A stretch of DNA of 20,596 nt. It comes from a virus. Made by a program: the position numbers and the translations under genes. The stretch lies in IMG/VR virus record IMGVR_UViG_3300034166_001279, positions 1 through 20,596 of that record. One strand, 5' to 3'. Below, one piece after another: positions 5,710-15,219 of this stretch (positions are counted from its first letter, which is position 1; the number at the start of each line of letters is the position of its first letter). The notes below the pieces were generated by a model, which saw only the letters and a program-made list of their open reading frames with translations, ran no database searches and was not told the origin of the DNA.

Positions 5710-6267
5710 TTACTCAACGGTAAAGATGTCTGTTTGTCGTTTAAGACCTGTTGGAAATTGCAGCTCATGATTTGTAAAACTTTTCTCTTTAAATACGACA
5801 AGGTTAGTTGGCTGGATAGTCAGTCTGCCATTGTATAGCTGGATAAAGCAGAACTCCTTTGCCTGTTCAGGAGCAGCAGAAAATCCATCACCGACGGGCG
5901 CTGCGGTAAACAGATACTGCCCTTCGTGCTGTCCTGGTCTAAGCTGTGTTTGAACCTTACATTCTAACCCTGCTAAGTAGCGATATTCTAAGCAGGTAAA
6001 ATCTTCGCCGTAACAATCCCACGTCTGAGCTTCTTCTGGTTCCCAGGGTGTTTGCGGTGCATCATCAAATGCCAAGCTATGCGCTGGTAAGTTTCGGTAT
6101 ATTGCGCCTGACTCTAGCATGACTGTACATCCCCACATTCTTCCGGGGTAGGAAACTAGCCCAAACCAAACCGCAGGAATGAAGCCTGTAGGCTCTTGGT
6201 GTGTATATCTGCTGTCAACGTAACAATAGAGGTGCCGAGGTAGTTCGCCGACCAGGGTGTTTTTCAC
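5710..6267 (-). CDS. Phage protein of unknown function
   Basis: A 185-residue soluble protein starting at GTG 6267, with AGGAGG a few bases upstream. No family was recognised. It is rich in aromatic residues (YCYVDSRYTH, AVWFGLVSYPGRMWGC, WDCYGEDF, LEYRYLAG), with several Cys, and looks mostly beta-stranded. The segment from the start to GRMWG has the look of a conserved domain; the C-terminal part (NLVVFKEKSFTNHEL) is more ordinary. There is no signal peptide or membrane segment. It lies between the Imm5-like gene and the nuclease pair in the minus-strand operon, so it is probably made early, with no further clue to its job. Confidence 0.65.
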   Translation of the reverse strand: MKNTLVGELPRHLYCYVDSRYTHQEPTGFIPAVWFGLVSYPGRMWGCTVMLESGAIYRNLPAHSLAFDDAPQTPWEPEEAQTWDCYGEDFTCLEYRYLAGLECKVQTQLRPGQHEGQYLFTAAPVGDGFSAAPEQAKEFCFIQLYNGRLTIQPTNLVVFKEKSFTNHELQFPTGLKRQTDIFTVE

Positions 6268-6294: not shown

Positions 6295-6831
6295 TTATTC
6301 ATGCGTCATCCCCTCCATCATCTTCAGCAATTGTTTCACTTGAGCATCCCAAGCAGCATACCTAGCAGCAGCCCTAGCAGCATTCCTAGCAGCATCACAA
6401 GCAGCAGCCCCAGCAGCAGCCCAAGCAGCATCACAAGCAGCATCCCAAGCAACATCACCAGCAGCAGCACAAGCAGCATCCCTAGCAGCAGCATCCCAAG
6501 CAGCAGCCCAAGCAGCAGCTAGTTCTATTTTTGTTGCTTCTCCATGTGCGAACTTTTCCGCTACTACTAACGCGGCTCTGCTACACTCATCGGTCATTAA
6601 ATGCTCAACTTGCCTAGCACACCACACCGCAAAAAGCCTTAGCGTCTTTGAGTCAATTAGCTTATCTCTGCAAACTACCCATAACTTATGTTCGGACGGA
6701 ATTGCGTTGTGCTTCAAAATATCAGTTACCGTTCCGCTCCAGTCTTCAGACAAATAACGAGAGGGATCGTAGCATGGTACCCAACTGCGAATGTCGGCAA
6801 TGGTGAACCGCTCTTCAGGTGTCTTGGTCAT
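6295..6831 (-). CDS. Imm5-like putative immunity family protein with Ala-rich repeat tail
   Basis: A 178-residue protein with ATG at 6831, GAGGGGG nine bases upstream and a 4-base ATGA overlap with the previous gene. The core FAVWCARQVEHLM (residues 67-79), SRAALVVAE and KFAHGEAT (94-100) matches the signature I recall for the family annotated as putative immunity protein (Imm-5-like), often followed by Ala/Trp repeats. Residues 105-162 are a run of about 14-15 tetrapeptides of the form x-A-A-x (AAWD, DAAC, DAAR, AAAG), expected to be one long helix. Function is unknown in phages; immunity to a toxin is only the family label. The N-terminal part (TPEERFTIADIRSWVPCYDP) reads like a conserved phage-type lead. 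Confidence 0.7.
   Translation of the reverse strand: MTKTPEERFTIADIRSWVPCYDPSRYLSEDWSGTVTDILKHNAIPSEHKLWVVCRDKLIDSKTLRLFAVWCARQVEHLMTDECSRAALVVAEKFAHGEATKIELAAAWAAAWDAAARDAACAAAGDVAWDAACDAAWAAAGAAACDAARNAARAAARYAAWDAQVKQLLKMMEGMTHE
6346..6519. repeat. 12-bp imperfect tandem repeat encoding x-Ala-Ala-x units
   Basis: On the plus strand this tract is made almost entirely of AGCAGC and AGCATC blocks with a 12-bp period, matching the tetrapeptide repeat of the gene it lies in. Whole units can be gained or lost without breaking the frame. It also creates a long Ser/Pro-rich open frame on the plus strand that is a shadow. Confidence 0.75.
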
Positions 6832-7811: not shown

Positions 7812-8453
7812 TTAGCGTCCCCTGTTACATTGTCGAATTGTTGTTAATGTTGCTTGTGAAATTGGTAGCCAGTTATTCCAAAGATTAACGTATTGTAGTG
7901 CGGCGCCATGCATGATCGTTGCTGGCAAGCTATTATCATGGTCTGCACCGAGCGAATGACCTATTTCGTGCGCTGCTGCTATGACTGAATGACGGTAGCG
8001 TGGTTCTCCTAACGCGCTAACGATCGTTGCATTACTAGTACTAACTTTATGCCCACTAATGCAGCTTTGATACGCTTGGCCTGCTAACCACAGTGAGTTA
8101 TCGTGTTGAATTGGCGGTAGTATTGCGTGATGTATCCACCGCGGGCGATAATTTTTACCCACGAAATACTCCTCATCCCACCACCAATGTGTGTTGTCTA
8201 TGCCGTGCCCTGTTAATCTATCCCTAGATTTTTTAGGATTAGCAATGCAGCGGAAACGACGTAAATTCAATTTAATATTTTCCCGTGCGTAAATCGCTTG
8301 CACGTCTCGTATCAATTGCCGCCCTTGCTGACATGTCAGTGAGTATGGCCCTTTAGCTAGTACAACTGACAAATTAGTTGGCCGAGCATAACAGGGGGGG
8401 ATGGTAGCAGCAGTTAAAAACCAGCTCGCAAAACTCAGCATCATGCGTCGCAT
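7812..8453 (-). CDS. Secreted metzincin-type zinc metalloprotease
   Basis: A 213-residue protein. ATG at 8453 is chosen because AGGTGA lies just upstream and the product then begins with a Sec signal peptide (MRRMMLSFASWFLTAATI, probable cleavage after PPCYA); a longer in-frame start at 8522 would bury this signal. The active site is AAHEIGHSLGADHD at residues 160-173, the HExxHxxGxxH zinc motif of metzincins, followed by the Met-turn TIMHG (Met181). Several Cys residues suggest disulfides, fitting a periplasmic or extracellular enzyme. The catalytic family is clear; the substrate is unknown. It is the only obvious secreted protease here and lies on the early strand rather than with virion genes, with its stop abutting the start of the TIM-barrel-like gene. 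Confidence 0.82.
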   Translation of the reverse strand: MRRMMLSFASWFLTAATIPPCYARPTNLSVVLAKGPYSLTCQQGRQLIRDVQAIYARENIKLNLRRFRCIANPKKSRDRLTGHGIDNTHWWWDEEYFVGKNYRPRWIHHAILPPIQHDNSLWLAGQAYQSCISGHKVSTSNATIVSALGEPRYRHSVIAAAHEIGHSLGADHDNSLPATIMHGAALQYVNLWNNWLPISQATLTTIRQCNRGR

Positions 8454-8493
8454 AAATGTCACCTGGTAAAACCTAGCCGCTACCCATCCCACA

Positions 8494-8805
8494 TTAAAAC
8501 GGTATATCATCAACGTCTGCATCTGCTAATTCGTACTTAAATTTTGCTGGCGGTGTAGTAGCAGGTTGACCACTAGTGACACGTTCAGCGTTGTAATTTA
8601 CTCGCTCTGATTCACTGTTAATTGCTTCTTGCAACAATACCACAAGCTTTTCTAAATCAGACTTATAAAGATATTTCGAATCTTTCCATTCTTCTGTATT
8701 TTTGTCTTTGTAGCGCTTGCTAATTTGATAAGTATAACCTCCGTTGTTAGCAGGCCACATTGTTATCTGTACTCCGCCATCTTTATACGTTTTGACTGGT
8801 TTCAT
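8494..8805 (-). CDS. SSB-like protein with acidic DDIPF tail
   Basis: A 103-residue protein with ATG at 8805 and AAGGA about seven bases upstream. The N-terminal 60 residues predict strands VQITMW, YTYQISKRYKDK and DSKYLY, then the helix SDLEKLVVLLQEAI, an arrangement resembling PC4-like single-strand-binding folds. A flexible Pro/Thr linker leads to the C-terminus DADVDDIPF, nearly the DDDIPF tip of bacterial SSB, which recruits replication and repair partners. The tip is the strongest evidence; the fold is inferred. It overlaps by 23 bases the upstream gene, a paralog lacking the tail. In an operon with an annealase and a resolvase, single-strand DNA binding fits well. Confidence 0.68.
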   Translation of the reverse strand: MKPVKTYKDGGVQITMWPANNGGYTYQISKRYKDKNTEEWKDSKYLYKSDLEKLVVLLQEAINSESERVNYNAERVTSGQPATTPPAKFKYELADADVDDIPF

Positions 8806-9483: not shown

Positions 9484-10311
9484 CTATTCTGCAGCCATAA
9501 TCGTTTTGTCTTGATCTGCATCGGTGTAATCCTCCGTGATACACTGTGTTAATTTTTCTAGCCGTATCGGTGCTCTGTATACGTCGTTTATGATATGTTT
9601 TGCTTCGCAATCCCTAAGATAAGCAGCCGCTTTTTCTTTTGCTTTCCCTTCCAGTTTTGAAATGTCGTAAAAAGTCGGGATTCGCCTAGTAGCCAGCTTT
9701 TCAGGCGCTTTAACGGGCTCTATTCCCTCTATAAAAACACCTTCTTTTGCGTAGCCCATCAGTTCGCCTGTTTTTGTACTAACAACAGGTTCCATGCCTA
9801 ACGCAGCTTGAGGGATCGGCTGTGCAAAACTTGCTGGCATTTCTTCAGCAGTATAAAGACCGCCTAGCTCCTGAATGAACGCTTCTCTTATCGCCAAACT
9901 TTTTGCACACTTCGAAAGCATTATACTGGGCATCTGAGCCCATACAGGGGTTTTTTTGCCGTACTCAGCCATATAAGCTGTGGCGATGCTTGGGAAGCGC
10001 CTATCCTTGCGGTAGACCTTAACCGTTGCAGCAATTAAATTGCCTTTGTCGTCGCGCTCAAATTCGACTTCCATGCCATCAAATTGAGGGTGACTATTGG
10101 CTATCTTTAGGAAGCCGTTGATGCCGGTCATTAGCTGTAATCTGCCACCGGCTTTAATAGCCCAAATTTCCTTCGTAGCCGGGTTTAGTCCTGTAGCCCT
10201 GCACATCTCAGCAAACAGCATGAACTCAGGCTCAGTAAGCCCTGGCGCTACTGTATTGCGGAGAGCTGTAAGCATCTCCATATTGTTTGTTGTTGTTAAT
10301 TGATTATTCAT
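9484..10311 (-). CDS. bet: Single-strand annealing protein, Bet/RecT family
   Basis: A 275-residue protein with ATG at 10311 and GGAG about ten bases upstream. The N-terminal two thirds match phage recombination protein Bet: APGLTEPEFMLFAEMCRATG (residues 22-41), LNPATKEIWAIKAGGRLQL, MTGINGFLKIANSHPQFDG, then VKVYRKDRRFPSIATAYMAE and the C-terminal core MLSKCAKSLAIREAF. The family coats single-stranded DNA and anneals complementary strands, usually with a partner exonuclease and an SSB. No 5' exonuclease of the lambda Exo/RecE type is visible in this window. SSB-like and resolvase-like genes are downstream in the same operon, so the set likely makes replication intermediates or concatemers. 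Residues after about 190 are variable, as usual in the family. Confidence 0.93.
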   Translation of the reverse strand: MNNQLTTTNNMEMLTALRNTVAPGLTEPEFMLFAEMCRATGLNPATKEIWAIKAGGRLQLMTGINGFLKIANSHPQFDGMEVEFERDDKGNLIAATVKVYRKDRRFPSIATAYMAEYGKKTPVWAQMPSIMLSKCAKSLAIREAFIQELGGLYTAEEMPASFAQPIPQAALGMEPVVSTKTGELMGYAKEGVFIEGIEPVKAPEKLATRRIPTFYDISKLEGKAKEKAAAYLRDCEAKHIINDVYRAPIRLEKLTQCITEDYTDADQDKTIMAAE

Positions 10312-10546: not shown

Positions 10547-10613
10547 GATTTTGTTCCTTAGTTAGTTAATAACTGCAGACTGTATACATTACTACTGTGT
10601 ACGTGTCTACAGT
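10547..10613 (-). promoter_or_regulatory. Internal control region with three degenerate operator palindromes
   Basis: The 67-base gap before the 80-residue gene holds ACTGTATACATT (10579-10590), ACTGTGTACGTG (10594-10605) and CGTGTCTACAGT (10602-10613), each a variant of the (A/G)CTGT-N2-ACAG(T/C) palindrome found before both other minus-strand operons. Extra CTGT half-sites run on into the end of the transglycosylase gene (10614-10640). The leader continues with CTAACTAAGGA, a phrase shared with other early genes. No sharp -35/-10 pair could be fixed, so the promoter is inferred from the operators. Confidence 0.55.
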
Positions 10614-11087
10614 TTAATACAGTTTTGACAGAGATATTACTTTTGCAGCGTATCGCTGTCCTTCAGCGCATTTAACCTTACCGCAGTTGTAGACGGTTAA
10701 AGCTTTGTGTAGATCGCCGTGCTGATCTAGCTCTTCGCGTAGTATTTGCGCTCCACATCTTACGTTATAGGTTGCGTCCCACAATTTACCCGCATCCGGC
10801 AAACCGCACCTAGCCGCGTTAAACGGCATAATTTGAGCCACACCACGCGCCCCTACTGATGACACTGCTTTAGGATTAAAAGCGCTCTCCACGCGCACTA
10901 AAGCCCTTAGAACGGCACGCCTTAGCCCGTAGGCATCGGCGGCCCTATCTATCTCAGCCTCTAGTACAGTCCTAGTTGGCTCGACTGGTCGCCTAGCTAC
11001 CCTACTCCCGTGGTAGACCACGGTTTCGGGGACTGAGACGTACCAGGCAAGCGCAACCAGGCAAGCTACGATCCAACCTTGCGTCAT
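10614..11087 (-). CDS. Membrane-anchored lytic transglycosylase (SLT family)
   Basis: A 157-residue protein whose ATG at 11087 forms an ATGA overlap with the upstream membrane-peptide gene. Residues 4-20 (GWIVACLVALAWYVSV) are a signal anchor or cleavable signal. The SLT domain fills residues 45-157: catalytic Glu67 in LVRVESAFNP, then SSVGARGVAQIMPFNAARCG, RCGAQILREEL and ALTVYNCGK. It cleaves the glycan strand of peptidoglycan in the periplasm. Cys9 in the anchor and four Cys in the domain are notable: weakly hydrophobic anchors with Cys occur in signal-arrest-release endolysins, so an endolysin is possible, as is a VirB1-type local wall remodeler. It lies on the early strand, far from the late holin. 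Confidence 0.85.
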   Translation of the reverse strand: MTQGWIVACLVALAWYVSVPETVVYHGSRVARRPVEPTRTVLEAEIDRAADAYGLRRAVLRALVRVESAFNPKAVSSVGARGVAQIMPFNAARCGLPDAGKLWDATYNVRCGAQILREELDQHGDLHKALTVYNCGKVKCAEGQRYAAKVISLSKLY

Positions 11088-11248
11088 TTATGCTTTACCG
11101 GCGCTGTAATAGCTGCTGGGTCTTCGCCAAGCACATAGATTTTAAACCCTATAGTGCAGGTCACAAAGCCGACAAAAAACGCAACGTGAAGCAACGTAAC
11201 GATGATTCCAGTTGGGGTAAACAATAGTTGTTTGATGTTATCGATCAT
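11084..11248 (-). CDS. Small single-pass membrane protein (holin-like?)
   Basis: A 54-residue frame starting at ATG 11248 with AAGGGAG seven bases upstream, three bases after the previous stop, and ending in a TGA that overlaps the transglycosylase ATG. Residues 14-40 (GIIVTLLHVAFFVGFVTCTI) form one clear transmembrane helix; short polar tails flank it (MIDNIKQL and EDPAAITAPVKHK). Size, topology and tight coupling to a transglycosylase suggest a small holin or membrane partner, but no family was recognised. Confidence 0.7.
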   Translation of the reverse strand: MIDNIKQLLFTPTGIIVTLLHVAFFVGFVTCTIGFKIYVLGEDPAAITAPVKHK

Positions 11249-11251
11249 GGC

Positions 11252-11431
11252 TTAGCTCCCTTGAATGTCGGTAGACTGACAATTCGACCACAGGTAACAC
11301 TTCAAGGGCACGTTATGTGTTTTCTGTGATTCCTGGCGCTCATCGACGCGAGTTATCCACAGCTTACCCCCAGCCTCAATGCCTGTACAACCAGTGCAGC
11401 AAAGCAATAGAATTGCAAGTATTTTCTTCAT
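11252..11431 (-). CDS. Small putative lipoprotein
   Basis: A 59-residue protein. ATG at 11431 is chosen because AAGGAG lies seven bases upstream and the product then starts with MKKILAILLLCCTGC, a lipoprotein-type signal with Cys15 as the likely acylated residue; the -3 position is Cys rather than the usual Leu, so the lipobox is imperfect. The mature part is polar, with two more Cys (PLKCYLWSNCQS). Size recalls outer-membrane spanin subunits, but it lacks the proline-rich stretch common there. It is second in a four-gene run of envelope products. Confidence 0.65.
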   Translation of the reverse strand: MKKILAILLLCCTGCTGIEAGGKLWITRVDERQESQKTHNVPLKCYLWSNCQSTDIQGS

Positions 11432-11472
11432 TTTTATCTCCTTAGTTAGCTTACCGTTACTGGTGAAGCATC

Positions 11473-11494
11473 GTGGACTTGTCATCAAGCCCAC
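11473..11494. promoter_or_regulatory. Intergenic stem-loop in the envelope operon
   Basis: GTGGACTTG (11473-11481) and CAAGCCCAC (11486-11494) are complementary over 9 bp apart from one position, which is a G-T pair in the minus-strand RNA, with a 4-base loop. It lies between the secreted-protein stop and the lipoprotein ribosome binding site. With no T-run, it is more likely an mRNA processing or stability element than a terminator. Confidence 0.4.
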
Positions 11495-11500
11495 TGTGCT

Positions 11501-11824
11501 TTACCAACCTAGATCCAGCCCGCGCATGGGTTGTCCTAGCCCGTCATTAGGTACTACACGCTGTACAGTCTCAGAGCCCGTTACGTCTTGGTCGTAAATA
11601 CTGCGCTGAGGTCGAGTAGTAGTCACGATGCTATACCCGGTACCCCATGGTCCGTTATCTTGCGGTACGGGTAATACGGGCTGGATCGGCAATCCAGGGG
11701 ATGCTGTTACATTGCTGTCTCGATAAAACGTACCCCTAGCGATAGCCCAATCGAGATCGGTTAATTCTGTCTGTGCGAATGCTACGCACGGCACAATAGC
11801 TAATGTTGCAAGTATCAATTTCAT
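11501..11824 (-). CDS. Secreted/periplasmic phage protein, unknown function
   Basis: A 107-residue protein. ATG at 11824 is chosen over an in-frame ATG at 11842 because AAGGAG lies about six bases upstream and the product starts directly with a Sec signal peptide, MKLILATLAIVPCVAFA, with probable cleavage before QTEL. The mature chain of about 90 residues is Pro/Gly/Thr-rich (SPGLPIQPVLPVPQDNGPWG) and ends NDGLGQPMRGLDLGW; it looks extended or beta-rich. No family was recognised. It is the first gene of the long minus-strand operon, right behind two operator palindromes, so it should be among the earliest products and act in the periplasm. Confidence 0.7.
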   Translation of the reverse strand: MKLILATLAIVPCVAFAQTELTDLDWAIARGTFYRDSNVTASPGLPIQPVLPVPQDNGPWGTGYSIVTTTRPQRSIYDQDVTGSETVQRVVPNDGLGQPMRGLDLGW

Positions 11825-11840
11825 AACGCTCCTTATAAGC

Positions 11841-11887
11841 ACTGTTTACAGCATCAATCCTACACAATACGATGTGCTGTGTACAGC
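11841..11887 (-). promoter_or_regulatory. Paired operator palindromes at the main minus-strand operon promoter
   Basis: ACTGTTTACAGC (11841-11852) and GCTGTGTACAGC (11876-11887) are 12-bp palindromes (arms CTGT and ACAG) spaced 35 bp. Between them, read on the minus strand, are -10-like hexamers (TATTGT, TAGGAT). The region divides the minus-strand operon from the divergent replication gene. The adjoining TTTCGG and AT-rich stretch (11893-11920) resembles that beside the pair at 13711-13752. A repressor bound to both sites would cover the promoter. Confidence 0.65.
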
Positions 11888-11956
11888 ATTAGTTTCGGAT
11901 ATTATAAAAATTTCTTGAGGGAATTTTGCCAGAAAGCTATAACTGGCTGAAACAAT

Positions 11957-11996
11957 AAAAAAACGCCCCATACCGGTCAAAGTAATAGGGCGTTTT
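11957..11996 (-). terminator. Hairpin with minus-strand T-run, just before the replication gene
   Basis: AAAACGCCC (11960-11968) pairs with GGGCGTTTT (11988-11996) around a 19-base loop. Reading the minus strand, seven T follow the stem, so it would end transcripts entering from the right. In the plus direction only TTTT follows, giving at most a weak attenuator between the divergent promoter region and the initiator gene. Confidence 0.5.
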
Positions 11997-12009
11997 AAAT
12001 GGAAATACT

Positions 12010-12636
12010 ATGGCTAAAATACCTCAAGAAACCTCTTTTTTCAACACAAAGAAGCATTTAGTAAGAACACTAGGCCCATACGAAGCCATCCTTCTTGCTT
12101 ACGTTGCAGAATGGGAAGCAAAGAATCTCCCTTGTTTTGCGTCACGAAAACATATTTCAGAAGAAACCGGATTTTCTGAAAAGACTATTCAAAACCTAAT
12201 CAAGAAACTAGCCGATGCAGGTTATTTGACCGTTTCACATAATGGTCGAAAAAGGGTTATTTCACTTACCAGCAAAGGGGGTACGAAATACTCCCAGAGG
12301 GGGCATAATATACCCCCTGAGGGGGTAAGAAATACTCAGATGAGGGGGTACGACGTACTCACTACTAATAAAGAGATTACTAATAAAGATATTACTAAGA
12401 ATGAATTACTAAGTGATCATGTAAATTTAAATGCTGTTCAAGATGAGGATGCTATGAAAAAAGAAGATGAAGAAAAGCATGAAGCACGATTAGCGCAACT
12501 GAGAGCGGAGTCTGAGGGTTGGGAGGATAAGGGTACCCATTGGGAAAAATGGGATGCTGAGACTCGAACAATTTTGCGGAAAAACAAATCAATATACCAA
12601 GAAAGGCGTTGGAGCCATGACGATATACCTGAGTAA
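12010..12636 (+). CDS. Replication initiator, lambda O-like, with winged helix
   Basis: A 208-residue protein with ATG at 12010 and only a weak GGAAA upstream. Residues 20-80 form a winged helix-turn-helix: LGPYEAILLAYVAEWEA, FASRKHISEETGFSEKTIQN, LIKKLADAGYLTV and the wing HNGRKRVISLT. This layout matches the N-terminal domain of phage O-type initiators, which bind iterons in their own gene. A low-complexity linker (NKEITNKDITKNE), of the kind common in this family, is encoded by AT-rich DNA. The C-terminal 60 residues are charged and helical and probably contact the helicase or its loader. No helicase loader gene follows; a host or distant phage protein must serve. The four repeats inside the gene support the assignment. 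Confidence 0.78.
   Translation: MAKIPQETSFFNTKKHLVRTLGPYEAILLAYVAEWEAKNLPCFASRKHISEETGFSEKTIQNLIKKLADAGYLTVSHNGRKRVISLTSKGGTKYSQRGHNIPPEGVRNTQMRGYDVLTTNKEITNKDITKNELLSDHVNLNAVQDEDAMKKEDEEKHEARLAQLRAESEGWEDKGTHWEKWDAETRTILRKNKSIYQERRWSHDDIPE
12277..12420. other. Candidate replication origin: four iterons plus AT-rich tract
   Basis: Four repeats begin with GGGGG at 12277, 12299, 12321 and 12344, spaced 22, 22 and 23 bp: GGGGGTACGAAATACTC, GGGGGCATAATATACCCCC, GGGGGTAAGAAATACTC and GGGGGTACGACGTACTC. Each is an imperfect palindrome. They are followed at 12361-12420 by an AT-rich tract built on ACTAATAAAGA and ATTACTAA repeats, as expected of an unwinding element. Placement inside the initiator gene mirrors the lambda origin. 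Confidence 0.72.
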
Positions 12637-12739
12637 GCCCGCTAAACGGCCTAGCAGCCCCAAGGTTGAAAGATAATGCTGCGGGGTAGGGTTACCCCTA
12701 GGCTACGAAGGATAATGCAACCTAGGGGCTTGTAGAGGG
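12637..12739. promoter_or_regulatory. Convergent intergenic region with overlapping hairpins
   Basis: This gap separates the ends of the initiator gene and the minus-strand four-gene cluster. CCCCTAGG (12695-12702) pairs with CCTAGGGG (12721-12728). GGGGTA (12683-12688) pairs with TACCCC (12693-12698), which uses some of the same bases, and CCCC at 12658-12661 could pair with GGGG at 12683-12686. A phrase GA(A/G)-G-ATAATGC occurs in both outer loops (12669-12679 and 12708-12718). No T-run follows in either direction. It probably shapes the 3' ends of both transcripts. Confidence 0.45.
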
Positions 12740-12952
12740 TTATTCGTAAACAACTATTTGAGGCGTAGAGTCATTTTTGCAGGCCTTAATGTGCTTCCGT
12801 TCTGTTCTGTTTATCGGCAAATAGTACCTCACGCAAAGATCGTTATTCTCATTTACTGCTACTTTACCAATTCGATACTCTCCGTCTTCGTCCATAACTA
12901 CCGTTGGAGCAGATACGACACCAACAGGAAAACTTTTTAGTTTCTTGCTCAT
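12740..12952 (-). CDS. Small early phage protein, unknown function
   Basis: A 70-residue protein. ATG at 12952 is chosen, with GAGGTAGGATAT just before it; a longer in-frame start at 13030 would overlap the upstream gene. It reads MSKKLKSFPVGVVSAPTVVM, EDGEYRIGKVAVNENNDLCVRY, then a basic segment (INRTERKHIKACKND). It looks like a small beta-rich protein with a basic C-terminal part. No family was recognised. It is the last gene of a four-gene minus-strand cluster of tiny orphans behind a repressible promoter, a typical setting for host-takeover proteins. Confidence 0.65.
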   Translation of the reverse strand: MSKKLKSFPVGVVSAPTVVMDEDGEYRIGKVAVNENNDLCVRYYLPINRTERKHIKACKNDSTPQIVVYE

Positions 12953-12986
12953 ATATCCTACCTCGTTACTAATATTCCTTCTGTTA

Positions 12987-13235
12987 TTACTCAGATAATA
13001 GTGCAAGTAATTCATTGTCAGTGTAATCAAACGTAACCGTATAACCGTGACGCTTTGCCGCCATTACTGCAGAGGTCGCACTATCAAACGTAACGTAGTC
13101 AGACGTAGTACTACCGTGTACGTCACCGTTACTAATGTGAGCCCAATGCCAAGTTTCGCTATCCTGACTCTGACGCACTAGAACCGTTCTATCCTCTGCG
13201 TCACAATGCTCTGCGTGTCTAATGTTGTTGCTCAT
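12987..13235 (-). CDS. Small acidic early phage protein, unknown function
   Basis: An 82-residue protein with ATG at 13235 behind CGGAGGATAT. It is rich in Asp, His and Thr (RHAEHCDAEDRTVLVRQ, SETWHWAHISNG, SDYVTFDSATSAVMAAKRHG) and ends in an acidic patch (DYTDNELLALLSE). The order of predicted elements is strands, one helix (SATSAVMAAKRHG), a strand and a final helix. No family was recognised, and no membrane segment is present. It has the same leader as the other three genes of this cluster. Confidence 0.68.
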   Translation of the reverse strand: MSNNIRHAEHCDAEDRTVLVRQSQDSETWHWAHISNGDVHGSTTSDYVTFDSATSAVMAAKRHGYTVTFDYTDNELLALLSE

Positions 13236-13249
13236 ATATCCTCCGTTGA

Positions 13250-13447
13250 TTAGTTAGCTTTAATCTCTACAGCGTCACCGATATATCTAAGCCCGTCAGC
13301 AGAGCCGAACGCAGGTGAGTAGGTCCAGGCATAATCGTTGGAGCCATAACGCTCGTTCGCTACAATCTCACAATCGTCGTTACTGCTACCCGTGATAGTT
13401 GCAACGTGCTCGTTAGTCTCAATGCTGTAAATGTAAAGTGTGCTCAT
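13250..13447 (-). CDS. Small acidic early phage protein, unknown function
   Basis: A 65-residue protein with ATG at 13447 behind CGGAGAATAT, ending 14 bases before the next start. The opening STLYIYSIETNEHVATITG predicts two strands, followed by SSNDDCEIVANERYG, which may be a helix, and a Tyr/Ser-rich end. This resembles small phage proteins with a strand-helix-strand layout, but I can name no family. Confidence 0.65.
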   Translation of the reverse strand: MSTLYIYSIETNEHVATITGSSNDDCEIVANERYGSNDYAWTYSPAFGSADGLRYIGDAVEIKAN

Positions 13448-13467
13448 ATATTCTCCGTTAATTGGGG

Positions 13468-13677
13468 TTATTTAACTAATCGGCGAATAGAGGGTGTGTC
13501 GCACAACTGTACGAGTTCAACAAATTCACTGCGAGTCAAAAGAATCTCGTCAGTATAGACTGCAACAAGATTGCGCAAACTTGGAAAATATTCTGGAATG
13601 CTGTTTATGTCGAAATTTTCACAAACACACGTATCGACATAATCTGCTATTTGTTCAAGTGTATCAAATTGTTTCAT
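13468..13677 (-). CDS. Small acidic early phage protein, first gene of the cluster
   Basis: A 69-residue protein with ATG at 13677 behind GAAAGGAATAT. It is helical and acidic (DTLEQIADYVDTCVCENFDI, LVAVYTDEILLTRSEFVELV) with a closely spaced Cys pair, C-V-C. No family was recognised. As the first gene after the paired operators at 13711-13752 it should be expressed earliest of the cluster and be under the tightest control. Confidence 0.66.
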   Translation of the reverse strand: MKQFDTLEQIADYVDTCVCENFDINSIPEYFPSLRNLVAVYTDEILLTRSEFVELVQLCDTPSIRRLVK

Positions 13678-13710
13678 ATATTCCTTTCGTTAGTGTGATT
13701 ACTATGTATC

Positions 13711-13752
13711 ACTGTATACAGTCTATCGTATGAGATGCACACTGTCTACAGT
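13711..13752 (-). promoter_or_regulatory. Paired operator palindromes at the early cluster promoter
   Basis: ACTGTATACAGT (13711-13722) is a perfect 12-bp palindrome, and ACTGTCTACAGT (13741-13752) has perfect arms; the two are spaced 30 bp. Read on the minus strand, a TTACTG and a TACGAT 18 bp apart could be -35 and -10, with one operator overlapping the -35 region and the other just past the -10. The rest of the gap up to the HTH gene (13753-13862) holds TTTCGG and an AT-rich block like that at 11893-11920, and nothing else I can name. Confidence 0.68.
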
Positions 13753-13862
13753 AATTTTCGGTATTTGGTTAAAAATCTTTAGGGGGTTTTTATGCCACGT
13801 GATATCAGGTAGTTAGGAATATTGCTTGCAGGGTAATAAGGTAAACAGTTACTCTTATCAAT

Positions 13863-14171
13863 ATGCTTGAGGGATTAAGATATTCAGTGGACAGTAAAGC
13901 AGAGCGATTAAAGTCTATTTACTCGCAGAAGCTTAGGGCTAGGTTTAAGCACACTATTGGCAGACCTAAGGGCAACATCTACTACGAGCTTAGACGTAGG
14001 CTAGGGCTCACACAGACAGAAGCAGGAGCGCTCGTAGGTATTACACAAAAGGCGTGGCAATATCGTGAGCGTGGCAAGGTCATGTACTATCCTTTGGAGA
14101 TAGCTATGTTGCATGAGCTGAGCGGTATGAGCAGTGACGACTTCCTAAGATTACTCAATGATATTGCGTAG
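13863..14171 (+). CDS. HTH (XRE/Cro-like) transcriptional regulator
   Basis: A 102-residue protein from ATG 13863; the ribosome binding site is poor, and a GTG at 13888 behind GAGGGA is an alternative. Residues 1-35 are basic (KAERLKSIYSQKLRARFKH). The helix-turn-helix spans about residues 43-70: YELRRRLGLTQTEAGALVGI then TQKAWQYRERGK, with the turn and recognition helix around GALVGITQKAWQYRE. The end is helical (YPLEIAMLHELSGM, SSDDFLRLLNDI). It is divergent from the early cluster across the paired operators, the classic place for a phage repressor or Cro-like switch protein. That it binds those sites is inference; it could also act on the late operon just downstream. Confidence 0.78.
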   Translation: MLEGLRYSVDSKAERLKSIYSQKLRARFKHTIGRPKGNIYYELRRRLGLTQTEAGALVGITQKAWQYRERGKVMYYPLEIAMLHELSGMSSDDFLRLLNDIA

Positions 14172-14871: not shown

Positions 14872-15052
14872 CTATTATCGTTGCCCTAGCTGTTTTTGTG
14901 TTAGTTTAGTTATCACGAGTCGTAAATGGATAAATTGTGGTGGGCACAGGTGTAATGCTTGGTTTAAGTTACAAACTTACCGTGTTAGTCGATTGGAGTA
15001 TGAAACAGTATGGGCATTGAGCACAGTTTTAAAGAATCAGATGAACAAGTAA
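14804..15052 (+). CDS. Ogr/Delta-like zinc-ribbon protein 1
   Basis: An 82-residue frame. GTG 14804 is chosen because AAGGAG lies exactly eight bases upstream (14790-14795); a TTG at 14798 is the alternative. The first third overlaps the small terminase gene. The zinc site is YRCPSC, then 14 residues, then CGGHRC, followed by NAWFKLQTYRVSRLEYE. The C-x2-C...C-x4-C spacing and the aromatic plus Arg tail resemble the Ogr/Delta family of late-gene activators in P2-type phages. The family link is by spacing and tail only. It is directly followed by a second such frame. Confidence 0.6.
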   Translation: MPSRYPRKSLSKSTLPTTIAPISYYRCPSCFCVSLVITSRKWINCGGHRCNAWFKLQTYRVSRLEYETVWALSTVLKNQMNK

Positions 15053-15219
15053 TGCGTTGTCCTGCTTGTGAACACCTATCTACGGTAAAGGTTAGCGATG
15101 AGTTTCCTTATGTGAGTCATTTTGCTGGTGATATGGGGGTTTATTTTGTTTGCCAGAATCCTAAGTGTAATGTGGAGCGGATTTATAATCCTGAAACGGT
15201 AATGGTAAGTGGACGATAG
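15052..15219 (+). CDS. Ogr/Delta-like zinc-ribbon protein 2
   Basis: A 55-residue protein from ATG 15052, which overlaps the previous stop (TAATG) and so begins MRCPAC, as Ogr proteins do; an in-frame ATG at 15010 would add 14 residues. Zinc ligands are Cys3, Cys6, Cys34 and Cys39 (RCPAC ... FVCQNPKC). P2 Ogr has C-x2-C-x22-C-x4-C with a similar CQN-x-x-C second half and a tail Y-E-S-V; here it is C-x2-C-x27-C-x4-C and YNPETVMV. Such proteins bind DNA upstream of late promoters and contact RNA polymerase. It overlaps the large terminase start by 11 bases. Confidence 0.68.
   Translation: MRCPACEHLSTVKVSDEFPYVSHFAGDMGVYFVCQNPKCNVERIYNPETVMVSGR

Follow-up and report, generated by a model that had tools for sequence, protein, structure and literature searches.

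The SOS box of LexA is made of CTGT and ACAG half-sites, the operators of the antitoxin MqsA are inverted repeats with a short spacing, and in phage phi29 one small phage protein, p4, represses early and favours late transcription, its sites being different from those described here. The late promoters of phage P2 carry the dyad TGT-N12-ACA, and Ogr is a CX2CX22CX4C protein (excerpts of PMC3931495). We analysed a 20.6-kb virus record of IMG/VR (IMGVR_UViG_3300034166_001279, 20,596 nucleotides, hereafter the window), in which the dyad CTGTNNACAG (CTGT-N2-ACAG, the C form) recurs ahead of leftward early genes. We propose that the fuller form TACTGT-N2-ACAGTA (core TGT-N2-ACA) would be the operator of a dimeric repressor at three leftward early promoters, P1 to P3. 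This repressor would most likely be the lambda-repressor-like helix-turn-helix (HTH) protein whose gene heads the late rightward operon. Sequence comparison supports the operator family well, and the choice of binder is weighed below.

A dyad largely confined to the early side

A preliminary description of the window listed four perfect and three weaker copies of a 12-bp motif, all in gaps before minus-strand genes. The four perfect copies, the P1 and P2 operators of Table 1, are found exactly where they were placed, and none of the seven sites falls within a gene, with only 5.8% of the window non-coding by a hand-made gene list. On the late side no strict copy was found, as had also been claimed. 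Two of the weaker copies, those of P3, are supported, whereas the one at 10594-10605 was dropped, as it lacks the TGTNNACA core and overlaps the copy at 10602-10613.

The strict dyad occurs 4 times in the window against 0.36 expected, and none of 100 dinucleotide shuffles contained at least 4. Counts that allow mismatches are unexceptional: the full 12-mer with one mismatch is found 6 times (2.85 expected, 7 of 100 shuffles equally high) and with two mismatches 39 times against 32. Within the window alone, CTGT-N2-ACAG is also one of 10 among 3,328 gapped dyads that occur at least four times. The significance of the motif therefore rests on its intergenic placement and on the relatives.

An HTH homologue is present at 109 loci, which were found by scanning with the HTH protein, its relatives and the terminase. 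After redundant loci and those with less than 200 bp left of the HTH gene had been dropped, 56 remained. In these left regions (203 kb), CTGT-N2-ACAG ranks first among the 3,328 gapped 4+4 dyads, with 34 distinct contexts against a mean of 3.1 (standard deviation 3.2), where contexts differing at no more than 9 of 30 flanking bases were merged and relatedness among the loci inflates the counts. The runner-up among N2 dyads alone has 15 contexts, the reversed pattern has none, and spacers of 1, 3, 4 and 8 give 1, 2, 4 and 1 contexts, respectively. The last of these values, one context of CTGT-N8-ACAG against 34 with N2 in the same 203 kb, excludes a LexA box, as the preliminary description had claimed from the spacer of 2 instead of 8. 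TACT-N6-AGTA (25 contexts, rank 2) and ACTG-N4-CAGT (24, near the top) pick up the outer bases of this same dyad, which indicates the fuller 14-bp dyad TACTGT-N2-ACAGTA. In the library of papers searched, neither ACTGTATACAGT nor CTGTNNACAG was found.

A minus-strand open reading frame (ORF) starts within 400 bp of 32 of the 34 C-form sites. Strict copies are all intergenic in the window, and 29 of the 34 in the relatives lie outside mechanically called ORFs (60-nt edges allowed), though the sequence is 80% coding. By side of the HTH gene, the C form counts 34 per 203 kb on the early, left side versus 1 per 225 kb on the late, right side, and is thus a repeated dyad restricted to the promoters of one gene class. 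A rarer A form, CTATGT-N2-ACATAG, is present in loci L092/L098, L053, L091 and L078, and three times as TTATGTAAACATAG in L260. Because L092 carries the A form beside its HTH gene and the C form at a second promoter, one factor probably accepts both. A C or A site occurs in the left sequence of 37 of the 56 loci, and of 21 of the 32 with at least 4.5 kb on that side.

Position of the sites within the early promoters

The sites recur, partly as near matches, ahead of the same three leftward operons in the relatives G003, G005 and G006. Counted from the HTH gene, they lie at -123/-153, -1988/-2023 and -3262/-3285 in the window, at -170, -2241 (a near match, the rest being strict) and -4204/-4227 in G006, and at -213, -1699/-1735 and -3850/-3873 in G005, with near matches only. 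The G003 sites are strict, at -67, -2954 and -4514, with an extra one at -1421. The weak window pair at 10579 and 10602 has counterparts in G006 (strict) and G005 (near matches), where two sites 23 bp apart also follow the transglycosylase gene, and the P2 sites, whose spacing was read from the sequence, have homologous sites in relatives.

The earlier statement that every site precedes a minus-strand gene needs to be amended for the 11841-11887 pair, which sits amid divergent genes (minus strand, 11501-11824; plus strand, 12010-12636). The plus-strand replication gene 12010-12636 may thus be under the control of the same sites. A rightward TTTACA-N17-TACGAT overlaps the 11841 site.

The candidate window promoters are TAGACA-N17-TAGACT for P1, TGTACA-N17-TAGGAT for P2 and TAGACA-N17-TATACA for P3, the last two read from the sequence. 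One operator copy would cover the -35 hexamer (TNNACA) and the other the -10/+1 region. Applied near the HTH gene to 49 loci, a simple promoter picker with a bonus for CATC in the spacer put the -35 hexamer of the best early-strand promoter within TGTNNACA in 21 (20 when the bonus was removed) and gave no promoter in 5. We also considered a set of 41 sites (34 C, 7 A), in which only matched outer pairs, CG or AT, were kept, so that symmetry at this position is by construction. A match to TAnnnT at four or more of six positions lies 15-18 bp past the hexamer at 11 of these sites on the early strand versus 2 on the other strand, while other single offsets give up to 4 on either strand. In the reading direction of the early genes, 36 of the 41 have A or T as the first of the two middle bases. 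Since the -35 hexamer is inside the dyad, a bound protein would exclude RNA polymerase, and we infer that repression would be direct, by occlusion.

The HTH protein

Of 16 records, 9 contain a single match to the HTH_3 profile, always the product of the HTH gene and always below the cut-off, and the other 7 contain none. The window protein matched HTH_31 with E 2e-4 (22 bits, cut-off 27), and Xre-like-HTH matched 38 of 51 family members at E <=0.1, with a best E of 1.5e-5. An AlphaFold2 model based on a 51-sequence alignment (mean pLDDT 82.4) predicts a lambda-repressor-like domain, with an N-terminal helix at residues 9-20 followed by helices at 39-47, 51-58, 62-71, 77-87 and 91-101, and displays the five-helix fold with the helix-turn-helix at helices 2-3. 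The best structural match is C.Esp1396I (Z 6.7 over 71 residues, 13% identity), where a Z below 8 may mean a mere common arrangement. Other fold neighbours, with weak scores, are the lambda repressor, the 434 repressor and the C-terminal domain of MqsA; the best Foldseek E is 0.03, with none <=0.001, and enzymes that are unrelated but have a domain resembling an HTH are also among the weak matches (HppE, Z up to 6.0). The likeness of the modelled fold, short of proof, suggests a lambda-repressor-like protein.

Among 56 distinct HTH sequences, R44, R68 and E69 are constant (56/56) and Y67, R70 and K72 nearly so (53, 50 and 54, respectively), whereas positions 62 and 63 are hypervariable. These two variable positions, together with the constant stretch after helix 3, would be the equivalents of the residues by which C.Esp1396I contacts its DNA. 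In C.Esp1396I, bases are bound mainly by R35 and T36, close to where helix 3 begins, and by R46 (excerpts of PMC4041747).

Which protein reads the operator

The HTH protein is favoured by being the only HTH_3 match found, in the 9 records of 16, and by adjoining one of the site pairs. Among 41 loci with at least 5 kb to the left of the RecT gene (near-identical ones merged), strict sites are present in 20 of the 26 with a core HTH (E < 1e-30) versus 3 of the 15 whose HTH is remote or missing (Fisher p 0.0008). If the HTH protein is the binder, it would be made at the onset of late transcription and would then shut off the early operons within a lytic cycle. Such lytic timing is favoured over immunity because none of the 16 records, including the window and the 35.6-kb relative G001, has a tyrosine integrase (PF00589) or an S24 peptidase (PF00717); the controls matched 14/14 and 11/14, serine integrases were not searched, and the records may be fragments. 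A temperate immunity switch of the CI/C2 type was rejected on the same result. We regard the whole explanation, in which the HTH protein represses three early promoters by direct occlusion, as evenly poised between right and wrong.

Several observations weigh against it. The co-occurrence of sites and core HTH is confounded by phage lineage; at 25 of the 56 loci, a strict site is lacking from the 350 bp next to the HTH gene, and 11 of the 32 with at least 4.5 kb on the left have no C or A site there. The A form is less confined than the C form, with 7 contexts early versus 2 late, and the TTATGTAAACATAG copies of L260, identical at 6023, 6527 and 8865, include two that lie beyond the HTH gene, on the late side. 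The sites of a pair are 23, 30 or 35 bp apart, which does not point to a single cooperative complex. A consensus promoter scan alone did no better than shuffles (9 vs 7.5), and the promoter positions therefore rest on conservation.

The most direct difficulty lies in the recognition helix. [CA]TGTNNACA[GT] lies no more than 350 bp from the HTH start in 31 of the 56 loci, whose HTHs have 16 different helix strings, plus one truncated gene. Among 28 pairs of loci at least 70% identical over 70 bp round the site, 15 have HTHs less than 50% identical; in L009 and L125, the operator region is 94% identical and the HTHs 38%, with helices TQKAWQYRE and GEETLRYRE, respectively. Conversely, L089 and L081 have the helix string TREAWQYRE in common and HTHs 91% identical, and L081 has no site at the HTH-proximal promoter. 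Over 465 pairs, operator-region identity and HTH identity correlate weakly (Spearman 0.14).

These comparisons indicate that the operator is independent of the variable face of the recognition helix, and hence that either the constant residues read the site or another factor does. We give roughly equal weight to the truth and to the falsity of the following statement: this group keeps one operator while its sole recognisable repressor swaps helices, so that the DNA is read either by the near-invariant YRER-x-K instead of the variable helix face or by a factor that is not a neighbour, be it a host regulator or the zinc-ribbon protein, the HTH then having another role, such as binding different sites. 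The earlier picture of one repressor governing one regulon is supported for the operator family and the three early promoters, and only in part for the HTH as the binder, the helix being exchanged while the operator is constant. A constant operator beside a variable helix is a test of how reliable recognition-helix rules are in the annotation of regulators, and a defined operator offers a direct handle on the early/late switch of the group.

Two other phage products were rejected as regulators. The replication initiator 12010-12636 would be expected to go with the palindrome arrays found 1-4 kb left of the HTH gene, and these, unlike the operator, vary among phages with the same helix. The 80-residue protein encoded after P3 is widespread in the group, occurs also in G007 and G015, where the C form is absent, and has no match to a DNA-binding family.

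With the same operator and promoters, the binder might be a host transcription factor, used by phages of a common host group, which would account for an operator that stays the same while the HTH of the phages themselves varies. A scan of viral contigs for dyad pairs gave 31 stretches, 9 of them with an HTH homologue, so that dyad pairs also occur in 22 without a detected one, but many of these 22 resemble chance or repeats. For 17 of the 22, the nearby ORFs were inspected by eye and no regulator was recognised beside the sites. The sites also track the phage lineage with core HTH (the 20/26 vs 3/15 above), a terminase alignment against genome_contigs (44 stretches) found no relative, and we know of no host box like CTGT-N2-ACAG. 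A host regulator is a doubtful candidate, albeit one to be taken seriously.

Another phage protein might bind instead, for example the zinc-ribbon protein encoded just before TerL (Table 1), which resembles the Ogr/Delta activators. In its favour, 17 other aligned copies are 53-74% identical to that of the window, whereas the HTHs fall to 29%. Ogr_Delta matches 12 of 18 zinc-ribbon members at E <=1 (best E 0.013), but the window protein reaches only 13.3 bits against the PF04606 cut-off of 26.3, and Lar outscores Ogr_Delta in the family (best E 0.00028). The zinc-ribbon is found without a strict site in L274 and L263, and a site without a zinc-ribbon match in L264 and L267. Ogr is a late-gene activator (excerpts of PMC3931495), whereas the CTGT-N2-ACAG sites overlap core elements of early promoters. 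The zinc-ribbon protein is quite unlikely as the binder.

That there is no dedicated operator, the dyads being merely strong -35/-10 hexamers of a common host promoter type, would explain why TNNACA coincides with the -35 and why 36 of 41 sites begin their middle pair with A or T, but it is very improbable, given that the left half CTGT is outside the hexamer and CTGT-N2-ACAG nevertheless tops an unbiased ranking in which the outer extensions rank high, and that the second sites of P1 and P2 in the window lie at or past the -10.

Gene layout and other features of the window

The coordinates of the sites and of the genes discussed are collected in Table 1.

Table 1. Predicted operators and associated genes of the window.
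Feature	Position	Strand	Remarks
Predicted operator P1-O1, ACTGTAGACAGT (minus strand)	13741-13752	-	Over candidate -35 TAGACA (13743-13748); kept in relatives
Predicted operator P1-O2, ACTGTATACAGT	13711-13722	-	At -10/+1; -10 candidate TAGACT (13720-13725), 17-bp spacer
Predicted operator P2-O1, GCTGTACACAGC	11876-11887	-	Over candidate -35 TGTACA (11880-11885); -10 candidate TAGGAT (11857-11862), 17-bp spacer
Predicted operator P2-O2, GCTGTAAACAGT	11841-11852	-	Just past -10; 16 bp ahead of the start codon of 11501-11824
Predicted operator P3-O1, ACTGTAGACACG, one half degenerate	10602-10613	-	Over candidate -35 TAGACA (10604-10609)
Predicted operator P3-O2, AATGTATACAGT	10579-10590	-	Holds -10-like TATACA (10581-10586), 17-bp spacer
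Half-site, GGTAAACAGT	13838-13849	+	Shortly before the HTH start; retained by some relatives
HTH protein, first gene of rightward late operon	13863-14171	+	Recognition helix 62-71; candidate binder
First gene of P1 leftward operon	13468-13677	-	From gene list and family scan
80-amino-acid acidic protein, first gene after P3	10304-10546	-	Followed by RecT-type gene 9484-10311
Zinc-ribbon protein, CX2CX27CX4C	15010-15219	+	Just before TerL gene; rival candidate binder

The late genes run rightward in the order HTH, TerS, zinc-ribbon, TerL (from a family scan) and portal, where TerS is taken for such by gene position and the portal is putative. The early genes run leftward and include, according to family scans, a RecT-type annealing protein, a transglycosylase and a resolvase-like nuclease. 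An O-like replication initiator (12010-12636, plus strand) lies between the early and the late genes. The P1 operon comprises four small genes, from 13677 to about 12743, for which a family scan gave no match better than E 0.05. Counterparts of the acidic protein (75-80 amino acids, with a DDAIYNATPE-like end) follow P3 in many relatives.

One scan of IMG/VR matched 238 relatives. Among named phages, the best-ranked terminase match is that of Pseudanabaena phage Pam5, 41.9% identical, and all 707 matches are below 60%; the terminase group is thus common in IMG/VR and without a close cultured relative in the phage collection searched. The uncultured freshwater phage and its relatives are probably a lytic group.

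Upstream of the HTH gene, the half-site 13838-13849 is possibly a weak autoregulatory site. A conserved block, GATATCA...TTAG...CTTGCA-N17/18-TACTCT (13795-13862), stops immediately upstream of the HTH ATG. No clear ribosome-binding site precedes this start codon; the block is perhaps a late promoter, and the HTH mRNA perhaps leaderless.

Inside the O-like initiator gene, GGGGGTA repeats with the palindrome CCCCCTGAGGGGG occupy 12277-12350. In several relatives, the arrays 1-4 kb left of the HTH gene consist of palindromes xxxCA-NNN-TGxxx, spaced roughly 20-45 bp apart and with phage-specific outer bases. These are likely origin iterons, and lambda O has comparable ones.

The leftward genes also include a reprolysin-like metallopeptidase gene (7812-8522, Pfam E 2.3e-6) and a gene for a protein with alanine-rich AAWDAA-type repeats (6295-6831). 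Rfam and tRNA scans of the window gave no match. Many phages of the group have the zinc-ribbon gene just before TerL, and its product weakly resembles Lar and Ogr/Delta. Among the viral contigs in which no HTH homologue was detected, copies of CTGTNNACAG number 12 in L197 (265-832), 7 in L176 (647-923), 6 in L178 (1834-2091) and 4 in L173 (3320-3558); some resemble repeats, and those of L173 and L178 resemble intergenic operators.

Comparison with known systems

The HTH protein resembles controllers of the C.Esp1396I type, which are small helical HTH proteins that bind as homodimers to pseudo-dyads upstream of the regulated genes and contact few bases (excerpts of PMC3758141). The controller C-boxes described there combine GAC/GTC with a TATA spacer, whereas the phage operator is CTGT-N2-ACAG; restriction-modification genes were not noted beside the HTH gene, only part of the genes having been family-scanned.

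Likeness to the antitoxin MqsA is weak throughout (Pfam E 0.0028; PDB 3fmy E 0.63; Foldseek rank 4, E 0.056). The score of 18.2 bits falls short of the PF15731 cut-off of 30, the match spans only 70-109 of 131 positions, and no toxin partner was noted. With P2 Ogr and P4 Delta, the phage has in common a TGT...ACA dyad and a CX2C...CX4C phage protein; nevertheless, their dyads have a spacer of 12 and belong to late promoters, whereas the phage operator has a spacer of 2 and lies at early promoters. As a type, the system is ordinary for phages, and its point of note is the uncoupling of the operator from the recognition helix.

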